A program made the translations under genes and the position numbers. The notes under the pieces are model-generated. The model was not told the origin of the DNA and made no database searches. It worked only from the letters and a program-made list of their open reading frames with translations. Source: Gemmatimonadota bacterium (GTDB lineage: Bacteria; Gemmatimonadota; Gemmatimonadetes; Longimicrobiales; Gaopeijiaceae). Taken from it: a stretch of DNA of 64,000 bases. The stretch is from contig JAJDYN010000036.1 of the NCBI GenBank assembly GCA_022825135.1, positions 1 through 64,000 on the forward strand, read 5' to 3'. Numbering within the stretch: the stretch's first letter is position 1; each line of letters begins with the position of its first letter. Of this stretch, positions 22,199-39,738 are shown piece by piece.

Positions 22199-23511
22199 AG
22201 GCAAGGGCACCAGGAATGAGTCGAGAGCGATTGACCTGCCTCAGAGGACCCCGCCACAAGGCCGTCGCGTGGTCATGCGGTGTACTGGTACTCCTGGCCG
22301 CTTGCGGCAACGACACGCAGTCCCCGCCCTCCGAAGCCCAGGTCACCGATTCGGCGGGCGTCGCCATCGTCACCAACCCCTCCGGCGATGCCGTCTACGC
22401 TACCATCGCCCCTGAACCGGTCCTCTCCATCGGTGCGATCGACGGCCCCGCGGAAGTGCTCTTCGGGCGCATTTCCTCGGTCGCGGTCGACGGCGCGGGC
22501 AATCTGATCGTCGCCGACGGCCAGATGGATGAGATCCGCATCTTCGACGCGGGCGGTGTCCACCTCCAAACCATTGGGGGCCCCGGAGAGGGGCCGGGCG
22601 AATTCCGGGCGCTCGCGGGAGCCTGGCCCACGGCGGGGGGCGCCATCGTCGCGGCGGACCAGCGGCTCGACCGCATCACCCGCTTCGGTCCGGACGGCGA
22701 GCTGGTGGGCACCGCCACCTTCCGGGGCCCGGGCGAGCAGCCCGTGATCCGCCCGATCCGCGTCGTGGGGCCGGACCTTTTCCTCAGCCGGGTGGAATCC
22801 CTGAACCTCCCCTCGCTGGAGGGACCCTTCAGCCTGGAAGAGGCCCTCGAATCGATCTCGGACCCTTCCGGAAGCAGATCCGAGTACCTGGTCCGGCACG
22901 ACCTGGAGGGCACCCTGGTCGACACGGTCACGTCAGTGCCTGGTCAGGCTACCCAGACTTCGGCACAGGGCAGCGGAACCAATCTGTCGATCCAGATCCT
23001 GCGGTTGCCCTTCTCGTCGGCTGCCGCCGCCACCGTCTCGCCGGAAGGGCGCATGGCCGTGACCACGGGCCGATCCTACGAATTCTCCACCTACGACCCC
23101 ACGGGCACGCTCGAGCGCATCGTGCGCCTCACCGAAGAGCCGCCCCTGCGAACCGACGCGCACCTCGAAGCATGGGTTCGGGGCTCCACAGGTGGGCGCG
23201 AGCCCATGGACGACACCCAGGTGGAGGCAGCCCTGCGCCGCTACCGGGAGATGCCCCTTCCCGACCGTCTCCCCGCTTGGAACTCGGTGGTGATCGCCGA
23301 CGGCGGCGAGATCTGGGCGCGCCGCTTCGCGATCAGGGGTGCCGAGACGGTGGCTCGCGATGTGTTCGCCGCCGACGGCCGCTTCCTGGGCCAGGTGGTG
23401 GCACCCGCCAGCCTTCGCATCCGGCACATCGGCGACGGAAGGGTGACTGTCATATCCACCGACGATCTCGGCGTGGAGCGCGTGGAGGTGTACGAGCTGC
23501 AGATGCCCTGA
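22195..23511 (+). CDS. 6-bladed beta-propeller lipoprotein
   Basis: The 438-residue product carries a lipoprotein signal (VLVLLAACG) and then VTDSAGVAIVTN, the start of the propeller. NHL-type repeats follow, for example IGGPGEGPGEFR and the DQRLDRITRFGPDGEL segment. Such proteins are cell-surface scaffolds, and no catalytic residues are seen. The GTG at 22195 overlaps the previous stop (GTGA); an ATG at 22216 is the other option. The lipoprotein at 36063 on the minus strand is a relative. The gene ends facing sixA, with a hairpin pair between them. Confidence 0.8.
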   Translation: MKARAPGMSRERLTCLRGPRHKAVAWSCGVLVLLAACGNDTQSPPSEAQVTDSAGVAIVTNPSGDAVYATIAPEPVLSIGAIDGPAEVLFGRISSVAVDGAGNLIVADGQMDEIRIFDAGGVHLQTIGGPGEGPGEFRALAGAWPTAGGAIVAADQRLDRITRFGPDGELVGTATFRGPGEQPVIRPIRVVGPDLFLSRVESLNLPSLEGPFSLEEALESISDPSGSRSEYLVRHDLEGTLVDTVTSVPGQATQTSAQGSGTNLSIQILRLPFSSAAAATVSPEGRMAVTTGRSYEFSTYDPTGTLERIVRLTEEPPLRTDAHLEAWVRGSTGGREPMDDTQVEAALRRYREMPLPDRLPAWNSVVIADGGEIWARRFAIRGAETVARDVFAADGRFLGQVVAPASLRIRHIGDGRVTVISTDDLGVERVEVYELQMP

Positions 23512-36062: not shown

Positions 36063-37283
36063 CTACATTCCGGTCGGCGTTCGCGCGAGGGTCAGCACCT
36101 GGGGGTGCTCCACGCCCAGTTCGTCCGTCCAGACGCCGAGGACGGCATCCATGGTGACATCCATCACCGCGAAGCCGTTCGGCGCGTTCACGGTGCCCAG
36201 CCAGGTGCCGTCCGCATCCAGCACCAGCCACGCCTGGGGCCGGTCCTGCTCGCTCCGTCCCCGGTACAACTCCAGCCACACCGCTCCCGCGGGGTCCACA
36301 AGGATGTCCGCGTAGGCGGGACGAGCCGCCGGAGCCGGCAGTTCTTCGATGAACTGCCGCAGGAAGGGAGGGAGGGTCGCCCCGGGAGGCAGCTCCATAT
36401 CGAACTGAGCCTCGCGCTCGGCGGCGACCTCTTCGTCGGTGAGGCTCAGCGGATAGTCCGGAATGCGCAGGATGCGAACGACATCGCCGGTGACGGATCG
36501 TTCCCGCACCTCCATCACGTCCGCGGACCCTTCCAGAATCACGTCGTCGTTCGCGGCTACATGTCCCTCCCTGGGGAACAGCGGAGGCCCCGAGATGGGC
36601 CGATCATCGATGACCCGGGCTACCTCCTCTCCGCCAGCGGTCTCGCCCAGACTGTCGATGCGTTCGCCGGCCCGGTCGTAGCGCACCAACGCATGCGGAC
36701 TTCGGATGACCTGAGTTCCGGGCGGGGGTTCCGTGAACGAGAAGACTTCCACCAGGACGGTGCCGTCGCCCAGGCCGTGAAGGTCGAAAGCGCGTGCTGA
36801 GAGGTCGAAGGTGTGTGTTGGCCCGAGGTCGGGTGCGAACACCGTGATCCGACCTCGCTGGTCAAGAGCGAGAATGTCGTCCGCCGATGGCTCCACTTTC
36901 CAGAGATTGCGAAACTCGCCGGGTCCGTCTCCAGCACCTCCCACCGATCCCAGGAATTCGCCCTGCGACGAATAGAGGCGCACCTCCTGCGAGCCCCGGT
37001 CGGCAACCACCACCGATCCATCCGGACGCTGCCGGACGTCGCGGACGCGGAAGAACTCGTGGGCCGGGCCGCTCGCGGAGCGCACAAGATCGACGCGCGG
37101 CTGCGGGTCGATGCTCCAGAGGCTTGAATCGCCCCACAGCGGTCTCAGCGCCTCGATGATCCGGATACCGGCGCTGTCTCGCTGAACGACCAGGGACGGA
37201 ACCGGCTCCGGGGCGGTGCACGAGACGAGACCGGACAGGACGAGGACCGCTACGGATTGGACAACCCATCTGGGTCGAGGCAC
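36063..37283 (-). CDS. 6-bladed beta-propeller lipoprotein
   Basis: The 406-residue product has a lipoprotein signal (LVLSGLVSC) followed by QRDSAGIRII, the same opening as the propeller lipoprotein at 22195. NHL-like repeats such as VGGAGDGPGEFRNL follow. The start is set at a GTG (37283) because a promoter candidate at 37379-37407 would begin transcription downstream of the ATG at 37424; the ribosome site is weak. It lies divergent from the BlaI-type gene, so the shared region may regulate both. Confidence 0.75.
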   Translation of the reverse strand: MPRPRWVVQSVAVLVLSGLVSCTAPEPVPSLVVQRDSAGIRIIEALRPLWGDSSLWSIDPQPRVDLVRSASGPAHEFFRVRDVRQRPDGSVVVADRGSQEVRLYSSQGEFLGSVGGAGDGPGEFRNLWKVEPSADDILALDQRGRITVFAPDLGPTHTFDLSARAFDLHGLGDGTVLVEVFSFTEPPPGTQVIRSPHALVRYDRAGERIDSLGETAGGEEVARVIDDRPISGPPLFPREGHVAANDDVILEGSADVMEVRERSVTGDVVRILRIPDYPLSLTDEEVAAEREAQFDMELPPGATLPPFLRQFIEELPAPAARPAYADILVDPAGAVWLELYRGRSEQDRPQAWLVLDADGTWLGTVNAPNGFAVMDVTMDAVLGVWTDELGVEHPQVLTLARTPTGM

Positions 37284-37378: not shown

Positions 37379-37407
37379 ATCGTAGCGGTCTCAACGGGTC
37401 TCGGCAA
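37379..37407 (-). promoter_or_regulatory. promoter of propeller lipoprotein
   Basis: On the minus strand TTGCCG (37407-37402) and TACGAT (37384-37379) are 17 bp apart. The left BlaI-type operator (37428) lies 21 bp upstream of its -35 box, so the repressor might also affect this promoter. Confidence 0.5.
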
Positions 37408-37427
37408 AAGACTCCCGGAATCATCCT

Positions 37428-37490
37428 ACGAAGACCCTCGTTGACATCCGGGAAACCATCGGCTACACTCCTGACTACGAAGACCTTCGT
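37428..37490 (+). promoter_or_regulatory. blaI-like promoter flanked by two operator dyads
   Basis: TTGACA (37441-37446) and TACACT (37464-37469) are 17 bp apart, a strong sigma-70-type promoter. Two copies of a 14-bp dyad flank it: ACGAAGACCCTCGT at 37428-37441 and the perfect ACGAAGACCTTCGT at 37477-37490, 49 bp apart. The first touches the -35 box, and the second covers the expected transcription start. A BlaI dimer on each would block RNA polymerase. The motif does not resemble the TACA/TGTA operators of known BlaI systems. Confidence 0.75.
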
Positions 37491-37514
37491 GAACAGAAGT
37501 ACGGGAAGCGCAAT

Positions 37515-37922
37515 ATGACGGATGAATCAGCCGGACGACGGCAGGAACCGAATCGATTCACCCACCGCGAGCTGGACATCATGAGCGTCCTCTGGCGCCA
37601 GGGCTCGGGGACGGTGGCGGAGGTCCGGGACGCGCTCGGCGAGGATGTCGGCTACACCACCGTCCTCAAGATGCTTCAGATCCTCAGGAGCAAGAACGCG
37701 GTTCGCCATGAGAAGGAAGGGCGGGCCCACCGCTACTACCCACTGGTTGAATCGGCGGATGCGGGCGGCAGCGCCCTCAGGCGGGTCATGAACAAGATCT
37801 TCCACGGTTCCGCGGAGCTGCTGCTCGCGACGCTGGTCGAGAACCGTGAATTCACCGACGAGGAGATCGAGCGCATGCGCTCGATTCTGGATCGAGCCCG
37901 GGAGAAGGAGGAAGACCGATGA
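37515..37922 (+). CDS. BlaI/MecI-family repressor
   Basis: The 135-residue protein has the family's N-terminal winged helix: RELDIMSVLWRQGSGTVAEV with VGYTTVLKMLQIL and the wing EGRAHRYYPLV. A C-terminal dimerisation tail with ILDRAREKEEDR follows. The repressor is normally cut by its partner protease when a signal arrives. It overlaps the M56 gene by 4 bp (ATGA). Self-regulation through the dyads in its promoter is likely. Confidence 0.88.
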   Translation: MTDESAGRRQEPNRFTHRELDIMSVLWRQGSGTVAEVRDALGEDVGYTTVLKMLQILRSKNAVRHEKEGRAHRYYPLVESADAGGSALRRVMNKIFHGSAELLLATLVENREFTDEEIERMRSILDRAREKEEDR

Positions 37923-39202
37923 TCATGTGGATGGCATATGCCGCGGTGATCGGCGGTCTGTTGGCGGCCGGAGGATGGGCCTCCGAACGCCTGTGCGAGG
38001 CCATGGGATGGCCGCGGCGCTTCCCCTGGCTGATCGCCCTCACGCTGGCGGTGGTGATCCCGCTCTCCGCGAGGCCGCCGGCGCCCACGCTGGAGGCTCC
38101 CGTGAACGCCTCGCCGGCCGTCGAGCAAGCCGTCGCAGGGGCGCAACGCACGGTGGAGGTGATCCCCGGCCCGACACTCGACCGCATGGCGGCGATGTCA
38201 TGGGGCGCCGCCTCTCTGGCGACGCTCCTGGTCTTCGGCGCAATCCTGGCCCTCATGGCCCGCTCGCGTCGCCGCTGGCCCCGGCGGTCCGTGGACGGCG
38301 AGGACGTTTACGTCTCGGAGGGCTTCGGACCGGCGCTGATCGGCGTGGCGCGTCCCTCGGTGGTGATCCCCGACTGGCTCTTCTGCGCGAGTGACCGGGC
38401 CGGCCGCGTCGCGATCCAGCACGAGCGCGAGCATGCGCGCGCTCGCGACCACCTGACCCTCCTCTACGGCGCAGTGATCGCCGCTCTCTTCCCCTGGAGC
38501 CCGGCGGTCTGGTGGATGGTCCGCAACCTGCGCGGCGCCGTCGAGATCGACTGCGACCGGCGCGTCATCGCCTCCGGAATCCCGGCGGACGACTACGGAA
38601 AGATGCTGCTCGCCATCGGGGTGGGACGGCACCGCCGCTGGGTGTTGACGCCCGCCCTCGTCGAATCTCGACATTCCCTCGAACGGAGACTGAAGGTTAT
38701 GGCTGCGAAGAAGACGAAGTGGACCCCGCTGCGCACGGTGACGCTGGCGGGTCTGACCCTGGCGGCGGTGGTGATCGCCTGTGACGCCAACGCCCCCACC
38801 GCTCTCGACGATGCGCTCCTCGACGTGTTTGCGGACCCGGAGGCGGAGGCCAGCGCGGACGGGTCCCTCACCCCGCAAGCCCGGGCCGAGCAGGTCGAGG
38901 CGATGCGGTTGAGGAGCAGCGAACTTGGAATCGAGCCTCGACCCCTGATCTTCATCGATGGCGTCGAGGTGTCGAATTCGGACCTCTCGCTTGAGGCCGG
39001 CAAATACACGGTCAGGACCGGCAGCGACCCCTATTCGCCACTGAGTTCGCTGAACCCCGACGACATCGAGAGGATCGAGGTGATCAAGGGATCGGCTGCA
39101 ACCGGCTTGTTCGGCGACGGGGCCGAGAACGGCGTCATTCAGATCTTCACAAAGGAACCCGAGACGTCCGAACCGGCGGCCGGGATCCCGCGCTCCCGGT
39201 AG
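37919..39202 (+). CDS. M56 sensor metalloprotease fused to a TonB-receptor plug-like domain
   Basis: The 427-residue protein has helices at about 5-20, 34-50 and 93-112, then the M56 zinc motif HEREH (168-172) with the third ligand Glu209 in AVEIDCD. A further helix (about 273-288) ends in AACD-like IACD. The C-terminus (about 340-412) is not a penicillin-binding sensor as in BlaR1. It carries RPLIFIDGVE and LNPDDIERIEVIKG then GDGAENGVIQIF, the pattern of a TonB-dependent receptor plug. The protease part should cleave the BlaI-type repressor upstream. A protein with this plug-like end might sense receptors or be cut and released. The role of the fused part is not known. Confidence 0.85.
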   Translation: MIMWMAYAAVIGGLLAAGGWASERLCEAMGWPRRFPWLIALTLAVVIPLSARPPAPTLEAPVNASPAVEQAVAGAQRTVEVIPGPTLDRMAAMSWGAASLATLLVFGAILALMARSRRRWPRRSVDGEDVYVSEGFGPALIGVARPSVVIPDWLFCASDRAGRVAIQHEREHARARDHLTLLYGAVIAALFPWSPAVWWMVRNLRGAVEIDCDRRVIASGIPADDYGKMLLAIGVGRHRRWVLTPALVESRHSLERRLKVMAAKKTKWTPLRTVTLAGLTLAAVVIACDANAPTALDDALLDVFADPEAEASADGSLTPQARAEQVEAMRLRSSELGIEPRPLIFIDGVEVSNSDLSLEAGKYTVRTGSDPYSPLSSLNPDDIERIEVIKGSAATGLFGDGAENGVIQIFTKEPETSEPAAGIPRSR

Positions 39203-39339: not shown

Positions 39340-39738
39340 ATGCGCGGCAGGAAGATGAAACGGAGCCCGCTTCGCGGGGTAACGCTGGCCGGTCTGACCC
39401 TGGCGGCGGTGGTCACCGCATGCGACACCGAGGCCCCCACCGCTCTCGAAGATGCGCTGCTCGACGCCCTGGCGGATCCCGAGGCGGCAGTCAACGCGGA
39501 CGGGTCCGACAGTCCGGGAGCAATTCAACTCGGGGGCGCGCTCGGAGACGGAGCCGCACCGCTGATCTTCGTCGACGGCGTCGAGCTCGAAGCGGGCAGC
39601 GCGGGGCTCAGCGCCCTGAACCCGGACGACATCGAGAGCATCGAGGTCATCAAGGGAGAGGCGGCCGCGGAACTGTACGGTGAGCGCGCCGAGAACGGCG
39701 TCATCCGGATCCTGACGATCGAGTCCCCGGGCGGCTGA
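39340..39738 (+). CDS. stand-alone plug-domain protein, partial paralogue of the M56 C-terminus
   Basis: The 132-residue protein repeats the end of the M56 protein. The hydrophobic GVTLAGLTLAAVVTACD matches TVTLAGLTLAAVVIACD, and PTALEDALLDALADPEA matches PTALDDALLDVFADPEA. The plug segment is LNPDDIESIEVIKGEAA with ERAENGVIRIL. Detached from the protease, its first 25 residues look like a lipoprotein signal with cysteine in VVTACD, so it could sit in the periplasm. GGAG lies about 9 bp before the ATG. It may act as a decoy or partner of the sensor. Function is inferred from the duplication. Confidence 0.7.
   Translation: MRGRKMKRSPLRGVTLAGLTLAAVVTACDTEAPTALEDALLDALADPEAAVNADGSDSPGAIQLGGALGDGAAPLIFVDGVELEAGSAGLSALNPDDIESIEVIKGEAAAELYGERAENGVIRILTIESPGG

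Follow-up and report, generated by a model that had tools for sequence, protein, structure and literature searches.

The 64,000-nucleotide stretch of Gemmatimonadota DNA analyzed here (the window) carries a blaI-like gene whose promoter is bracketed by two matched inverted repeats. This raises the question of whether these dyads are operators of the repressor encoded downstream and which genes such a repressor would control. The initial annotation had located both dyads around a near-consensus promoter (TTGACA-17-TACACT) upstream of the gene, which was confirmed (Table 1). Its distance of 49 bp applies from start to start, whereas the gap between the dyads is 35 bp. The 14-mer cores (ACGAAGACCCTCGT, 37428-37441; ACGAAGACCTTCGT, 37477-37490) are extended by one base per side to dyads of 16 bp. 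Dyad 2 is perfectly symmetric, while dyad 1 is imperfect, with five of six arm pairs matching. Dyad 2 starts 7 bp from the last base of the −10 box, and it ends 24 bp upstream of the blaI-like gene.

Table 1. Features of the blaI-like locus and of a related lipoprotein locus in the window
Feature	Position	Strand	Remarks
Beta-propeller lipoprotein gene	22216..23508	+	Orthologues have TTGAC-17-TAnnnT and one dyad at +1
Divergent propeller-type lipoprotein gene	36063..37283	−	Likely start GTG 37283; longest ORF to 37424
Putative divergent promoter TTGCCG-17-TACGAT	37379..37407	−	Flank common to only 5/9 genus loci
Predicted operator dyad 1 (distal)	37427..37442	+	TACGAAGACCCTCGTT; final two T's shared with the start of the −35 box
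−35 box TTGACA of the blaI promoter	37441..37446	+	Invariant across nine genus loci
−10 box TACACT	37464..37469	+	17 bp from the −35 box; TACA(C/A/G)T among genus members
Predicted operator dyad 2 (proximal)	37476..37491	+	TACGAAGACCTTCGTG; at the expected transcription start
blaI-like repressor gene, 135 aa	37515..37922	+	Recognition helix GYTTVLKMLQI, residues 46-56
BlaR1-like membrane protease gene, M56 domain	37919..39202	+	4-bp overlap with blaI; Peptidase_M56 8.5e-17
Small lipoprotein-like protein	39340..39738	+	Second, free-standing plug-like domain, Plug 1.5e-11

A dyad pair of this kind is neither rare in shuffled 64-kb sequence nor strong evidence by itself. When two almost identical imperfect dyads were required to lie no more than 120 bp apart, with 5 of 6 arm pairs matching, the window contained one such pair and shuffled 64-kb windows 0.43 on average. 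Because the pair is frequent enough by chance, conservation and position carry the weight. A stricter test, which required at least six of seven symmetric positions, retrieved no pair from the window, dyad 1 being imperfect. Elsewhere in the 3.54 Mb genome, the 14-base pattern ACGAAGNNCNTCGT does not recur, and its reversed control has one forward and one reverse match. Dyads with two mismatches were near background throughout this genome (16 versus 13 for the control); only one of these sites, located on contig C19, was retained, as it has a promoter and is conserved. The alignment of blaI upstream regions proposed in the initial annotation revealed the dyad pair in all nine loci of the genus that were compared (this genome's own included), with 97% conservation for dyad 1, 96% for dyad 2, and 100% for the −35 box, against 68-69% for the flanks. 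Thirteen of the 16 columns of dyad 2 (37475-37490) are invariant, and the spacing is 49-50 bp in all nine aligned loci.

The same alignment bears on the suggested effect of the dyads on the divergent lipoprotein promoter. The divergent gene resembles the propeller lipoproteins, which are predicted targets elsewhere, and its product shares 41% identity with residues 12-160 of a propeller lipoprotein. However, the promoter region on the lipoprotein side is missing in four of the nine genus loci while the dyads persist, which removes the main support for this idea, and dyad 1 is situated some 20 bp upstream of the divergent −35 box, off the promoter elements. The divergent gene is probably not a target, and its control by the dyads appears improbable.

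The protein encoded downstream belongs to a known repressor family. Pfam Penicillinase_R (PF03965, 1.8e-28) covers residues 16-126 and hence most of the protein, and the sequence matches the MecI structures 1sd6 and 1okr (E about 1e-10). BlaI structures were matched too, among them 2g9w, which we take to be Mycobacterium tuberculosis BlaI (Rv1846c) and which has a similar recognition helix (AYTTVMAVLQRL versus GYTTVLKMLQIL here). The locus shares with the BlaI/MecI and BlaR1/MecR1 systems of Staphylococcus and B. licheniformis the Penicillinase_R repressor, the M56 partner, and autoregulation through dyads, the latter being a prediction here. The M56 protease, whose HExxH motif reads HEREH at residue 168, differs from BlaR1 and MecR1 in its C-terminus, where a TonB plug-like domain (Pfam Plug, 8.4e-9) replaces the penicillin-binding sensor; the Pfam search for such a sensor gave M56 and TonB plug only, and the blaR1_generic profile reached 33.9 bits (cut-off 400), confined to the M56 part. 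The plug-like domain also resembles a SusC signature. A further difference is the absence of the N-F cleavage dipeptide; the position aligned with staphylococcal N101-F102 is occupied by T-L in this repressor. No beta-lactamase is found among the predicted targets. The small plug-domain protein may belong to the blaI operon, and together with the M56-plug protein it could possibly form an envelope sensor. For the copper repressor branch, the CopY_TcrY profile yielded a score of 53.5, under its cut-off of 121.95, and the C-terminal Cys-X-Cys (CXC) metal motif of CopY is absent from the 135-aa protein, which has no cysteine.

The dyads had been regarded as unlike the TACA/TGTA operator of known BlaI proteins, and indeed TACANNTGTA does not occur anywhere in the 64-kb window. 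B. licheniformis BlaI has three operators, OP1-OP3 (PMC3305447). In the BlaI/MecI operator TACANNTGTA (e.g., OP1 ...TTACATATGTAA..., PMC3305447), TAC and GTA are 4 bp apart, whereas they are 10 bp apart here, with GAA/TTC inside. The description of the dyads as a new operator type is borne out in that they represent a distinct 16-bp class, TACGAA-N4-TTCGTA, which tracks the recognition helix, but the class is widespread and not peculiar to this locus. In loci gathered by protein similarity, such dyads were found upstream of blaI in other Gemmatimonadota families. In addition, they occur in entries classified as Acidobacteriota (Geothrix and other Holophagaceae among them), Verrucomicrobiota, Armatimonadota, Hydrogenedentota, Myxococcota, and Pseudomonadota, many of which are metagenome bins, so that the phylum label of single records may be wrong. 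The protein identity at the cross-phylum loci with TACGAA-class dyads is 32-40%.

Two layouts were distinguished. Inside Gemmatimonadota, the second dyad is located 42-59 bp downstream, at the start site; outside this phylum, it is located 21-24 bp downstream, between the −35 and −10 boxes, in 24 of 28 loci. The element that remains constant over both layouts is dyad 1 on the −35 box. Its register is fixed in 59 GAA-class cases, 31 of them with an exact TTGACA, and TACGAnnnnnnTCGT(T/A)GA is seen in most of the 59 distinct blaI upstream regions. For this count, the 16 bases ending at the −35 box were read, anchored on GT(T/A)GA, a selection that fixes positions 1-5 and 14-16; the unselected positions follow the dyad nonetheless (A at position 6, T at position 12, and C at position 13, each in 55/59).

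At the corresponding positions, related Gemmatimonadota families carry TACGGR-N4-CCCGTA, which allowed for a comparison of operators and repressors. TACGA and TACGG repressors are fully told apart by columns 52, 53, and 56 of the recognition helix and nearly so by column 46; the C-terminal columns 128-129 also distinguish them completely. The combination K52/Q55 goes with TACGAA, and all 11 cases in which Q55 is combined with W or S52 have TACGG (TACGGR class). Repressors with R55 (paralogue 2 and some Pseudomonadota) have TACGA or TACGG in none of 16 cases; some of them have TACTA-like sites. MecI contacts bases through its recognition helix, and columns 46, 52, 53, and 56 align with MecI S41, T47, L48, and R51. 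As judged from these alignments, the operator class tracks the BlaI recognition helix. The classes are grouped on the tree, with perhaps two or three operator-helix switches, and the covariation therefore rests on two or three events rather than on many independent ones.

These results also bear on the possibility that the dyads bind another, unlinked regulator, which controls blaI together with envelope genes. Some sites do lie at genes away from blaI, as such a regulator would have it. Yet the dyads accompany blaI genes in different phyla and belong to a sequence class that agrees with the BlaI recognition helix, and TACGA, TACGG, and one TACTA variant are placed alike with respect to the −35 box of blaI. 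Moreover, G006 (67% complete), the genus member in which no close BlaI orthologue was found, has no dyad at its propeller gene either. We regard an unlinked regulator as very unlikely.

The sites away from blaI point to the remaining members of the predicted regulon. In the genus of the window, nine of ten relatives have a single dyad at +1 of a propeller lipoprotein gene, G006 being the exception. The corresponding gene of this genome (22216-23508) lacks the 84 bp with promoter and dyad, cleanly lost between two GC dinucleotides; the junction is at 22201-22202, and the protein is 98% identical to that of G009, whose locus is intact. The loss could be a real deletion or an effect of the assembly. 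A different propeller-type lipoprotein gene, located on contig C19 of the same genome, is preceded by TTGACA-17-TACTCG with TACGACATCCTTCGTG at +1, an arrangement common to G001, G004, and G009 and absent in other relatives. The propeller-type lipoprotein family of this genome is large, with a dyad at +1 found for one among the 38 matches listed. In a sister genus (g25), the same dyads are found upstream of M56 genes that stand alone, of an amidohydrolase-blaI operon, and of genes for propeller lipoproteins or plug-domain proteins. The amidohydrolase was assigned by Pfam at locus L187 and by eye on in-frame ORFs at L179, L188, L189, and L191. In this genus, several M56 sensor genes that share the operator can lie close to a single blaI within one genome (L175-L191). 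The gene arrangement suggests that many M56 sensors may feed one repressor in g25. Promoter and operator together seem to behave as a cassette that is acquired or lost as a whole.

Dyads, promoter, conservation, linkage to BlaI, recurrence at other operons, and co-inheritance of operator and helix are all read from the sequence. We consider it highly probable that the dyads are the operators of the BlaI-type repressor encoded downstream, which would repress its own blaI-M56 operon and be relieved by the protease. We infer the binding of BlaI, the action of two dimers, the proteolytic release, and the nature of the signal as follows. With one dimer on dyad 1 covering the upstream end of the −35 box and another on dyad 2 covering the transcription start, BlaI would shut off the operon that encodes it and the M56 protease. 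Upon an envelope signal, the M56 protease would inactivate BlaI, a step modelled on BlaR1, and the operon would be derepressed together with a few other sites, in this genome a second propeller-lipoprotein promoter. The layout fits steric repression, in which the −35 box would be hidden by dyad 1 and the start by dyad 2, and it is plausible by analogy that the paired dyads block both polymerase binding and escape. The spacings in Gemmatimonadota (44, 46-47, 49, and 57-59 bp) have no single helical phase, which makes strict cooperation between the dimers unlikely in this phylum.

Dyad 2 at the start site might alone be responsible for strong repression, with dyad 1 secondary or weak. The propeller lipoprotein promoters of the genus have only a single dyad, at +1, and across the genus dyad 1 departs further from symmetry than dyad 2, both in line with this possibility; however, dyad 1 is conserved as well as dyad 2 in the genus, and it is dyad 1 that holds a constant position across phyla. 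We therefore judge it unlikely, while giving it some weight. Dyad 2 would fall at the 5′ end of the transcript and was also considered as an RNA hairpin or terminator-like element of the leader. The 40-nt leader folds only weakly (−6.1 kcal/mol) and into a fold different from the dyad hairpin, and the hairpin reading was rejected on this ground. In addition, dyad 1 is not transcribed from the blaI promoter, and in other phyla the inferred start is usually preceded by both dyads, which leaves an RNA element with hardly any probability.

The proposed repression by BlaI from paired operators resembles what has been described for other members of the family. The operator of the CopY/CopR copper repressors is RNYKACANNYGTMRNY, and where two operators exist, most are 24-39 bases apart; the distal site has been proposed to cover the −35 box and the proximal site to occlude the polymerase (PMC7253601). 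The operator letters differ here, and the partner is an M56 protease instead of a copper exporter. In C. thermocellum, BlaI_0696 and BlaI_1845 have the non-TACA sites GTCTAT and GACTAT, two dyads per target accommodate four protomers, and an autoregulated BlaI controls a small regulon including more than one BlaR1 (PMC8457756). Non-TACA sites, paired dyads, a small regulon with more than one BlaR1-type gene, and autoregulation (the last two predicted here) are shared with this system, whereas the operator sequence differs, as do the targets, which are read as a beta-lactam response in C. thermocellum and are predicted to be M56 sensors, propeller lipoproteins, and an amidohydrolase here. The repressor family, autoregulation, paired sites, and operator diversity among BlaI proteins are thus already known. 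A search of mostly open-access papers returned no published description of a TACGA BlaI operator. In the literature covered, neither the TACGAA-N4-TTCGTA class, with its wide distribution and its tie to the recognition helix, nor the predicted propeller/M56/amidohydrolase regulon was found to be described. By its sequence, TACGAA-N4-TTCGTA extends a known repressor family by a new operator variant with a wide distribution.

A wider reading combines two parts. First, TACGAA-N4-TTCGTA would be an old BlaI operator class common to several phyla, and changes in a few helix residues (46, 52, 53, and 56; 48/55 in other paralogues) would have given rise to TACGGR and other classes within Gemmatimonadota. 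Second, the repressor would govern an envelope-surveillance regulon comprising M56-plug sensors, an amidohydrolase, and propeller lipoproteins, each of which would use a promoter-operator cassette gained or lost as a unit. Both parts jointly are put forward tentatively, at slightly below even chances. The predicted operator would make regulons readable from sequence for a large, little-studied BlaI-M56 set in mostly uncultured Gemmatimonadota, Acidobacteriota, and Verrucomicrobiota. The natural series K52/TACGAA, W or S52/TACGGR, and R55/other offers a route to how BlaI proteins choose DNA, and the predicted targets, which are not beta-lactamases, raise the question of which signal is sensed.

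Some further loci were recorded. In the close relative G005 (L006), the divergent lipoprotein gene of the window is apparently deleted upstream of blaI, with the dyads intact. A site in G313 precedes an HlyD-like gene and, being of doubtful origin, was excluded from the target list. A second BlaI paralogue with the helix AYNTVL (L062-L076, paralogue of G000:C24:188) has asymmetric mixed half-sites, e.g., TCCCAA-N4-CTAGTT merging into TTGACA, plus a mirrored copy downstream.
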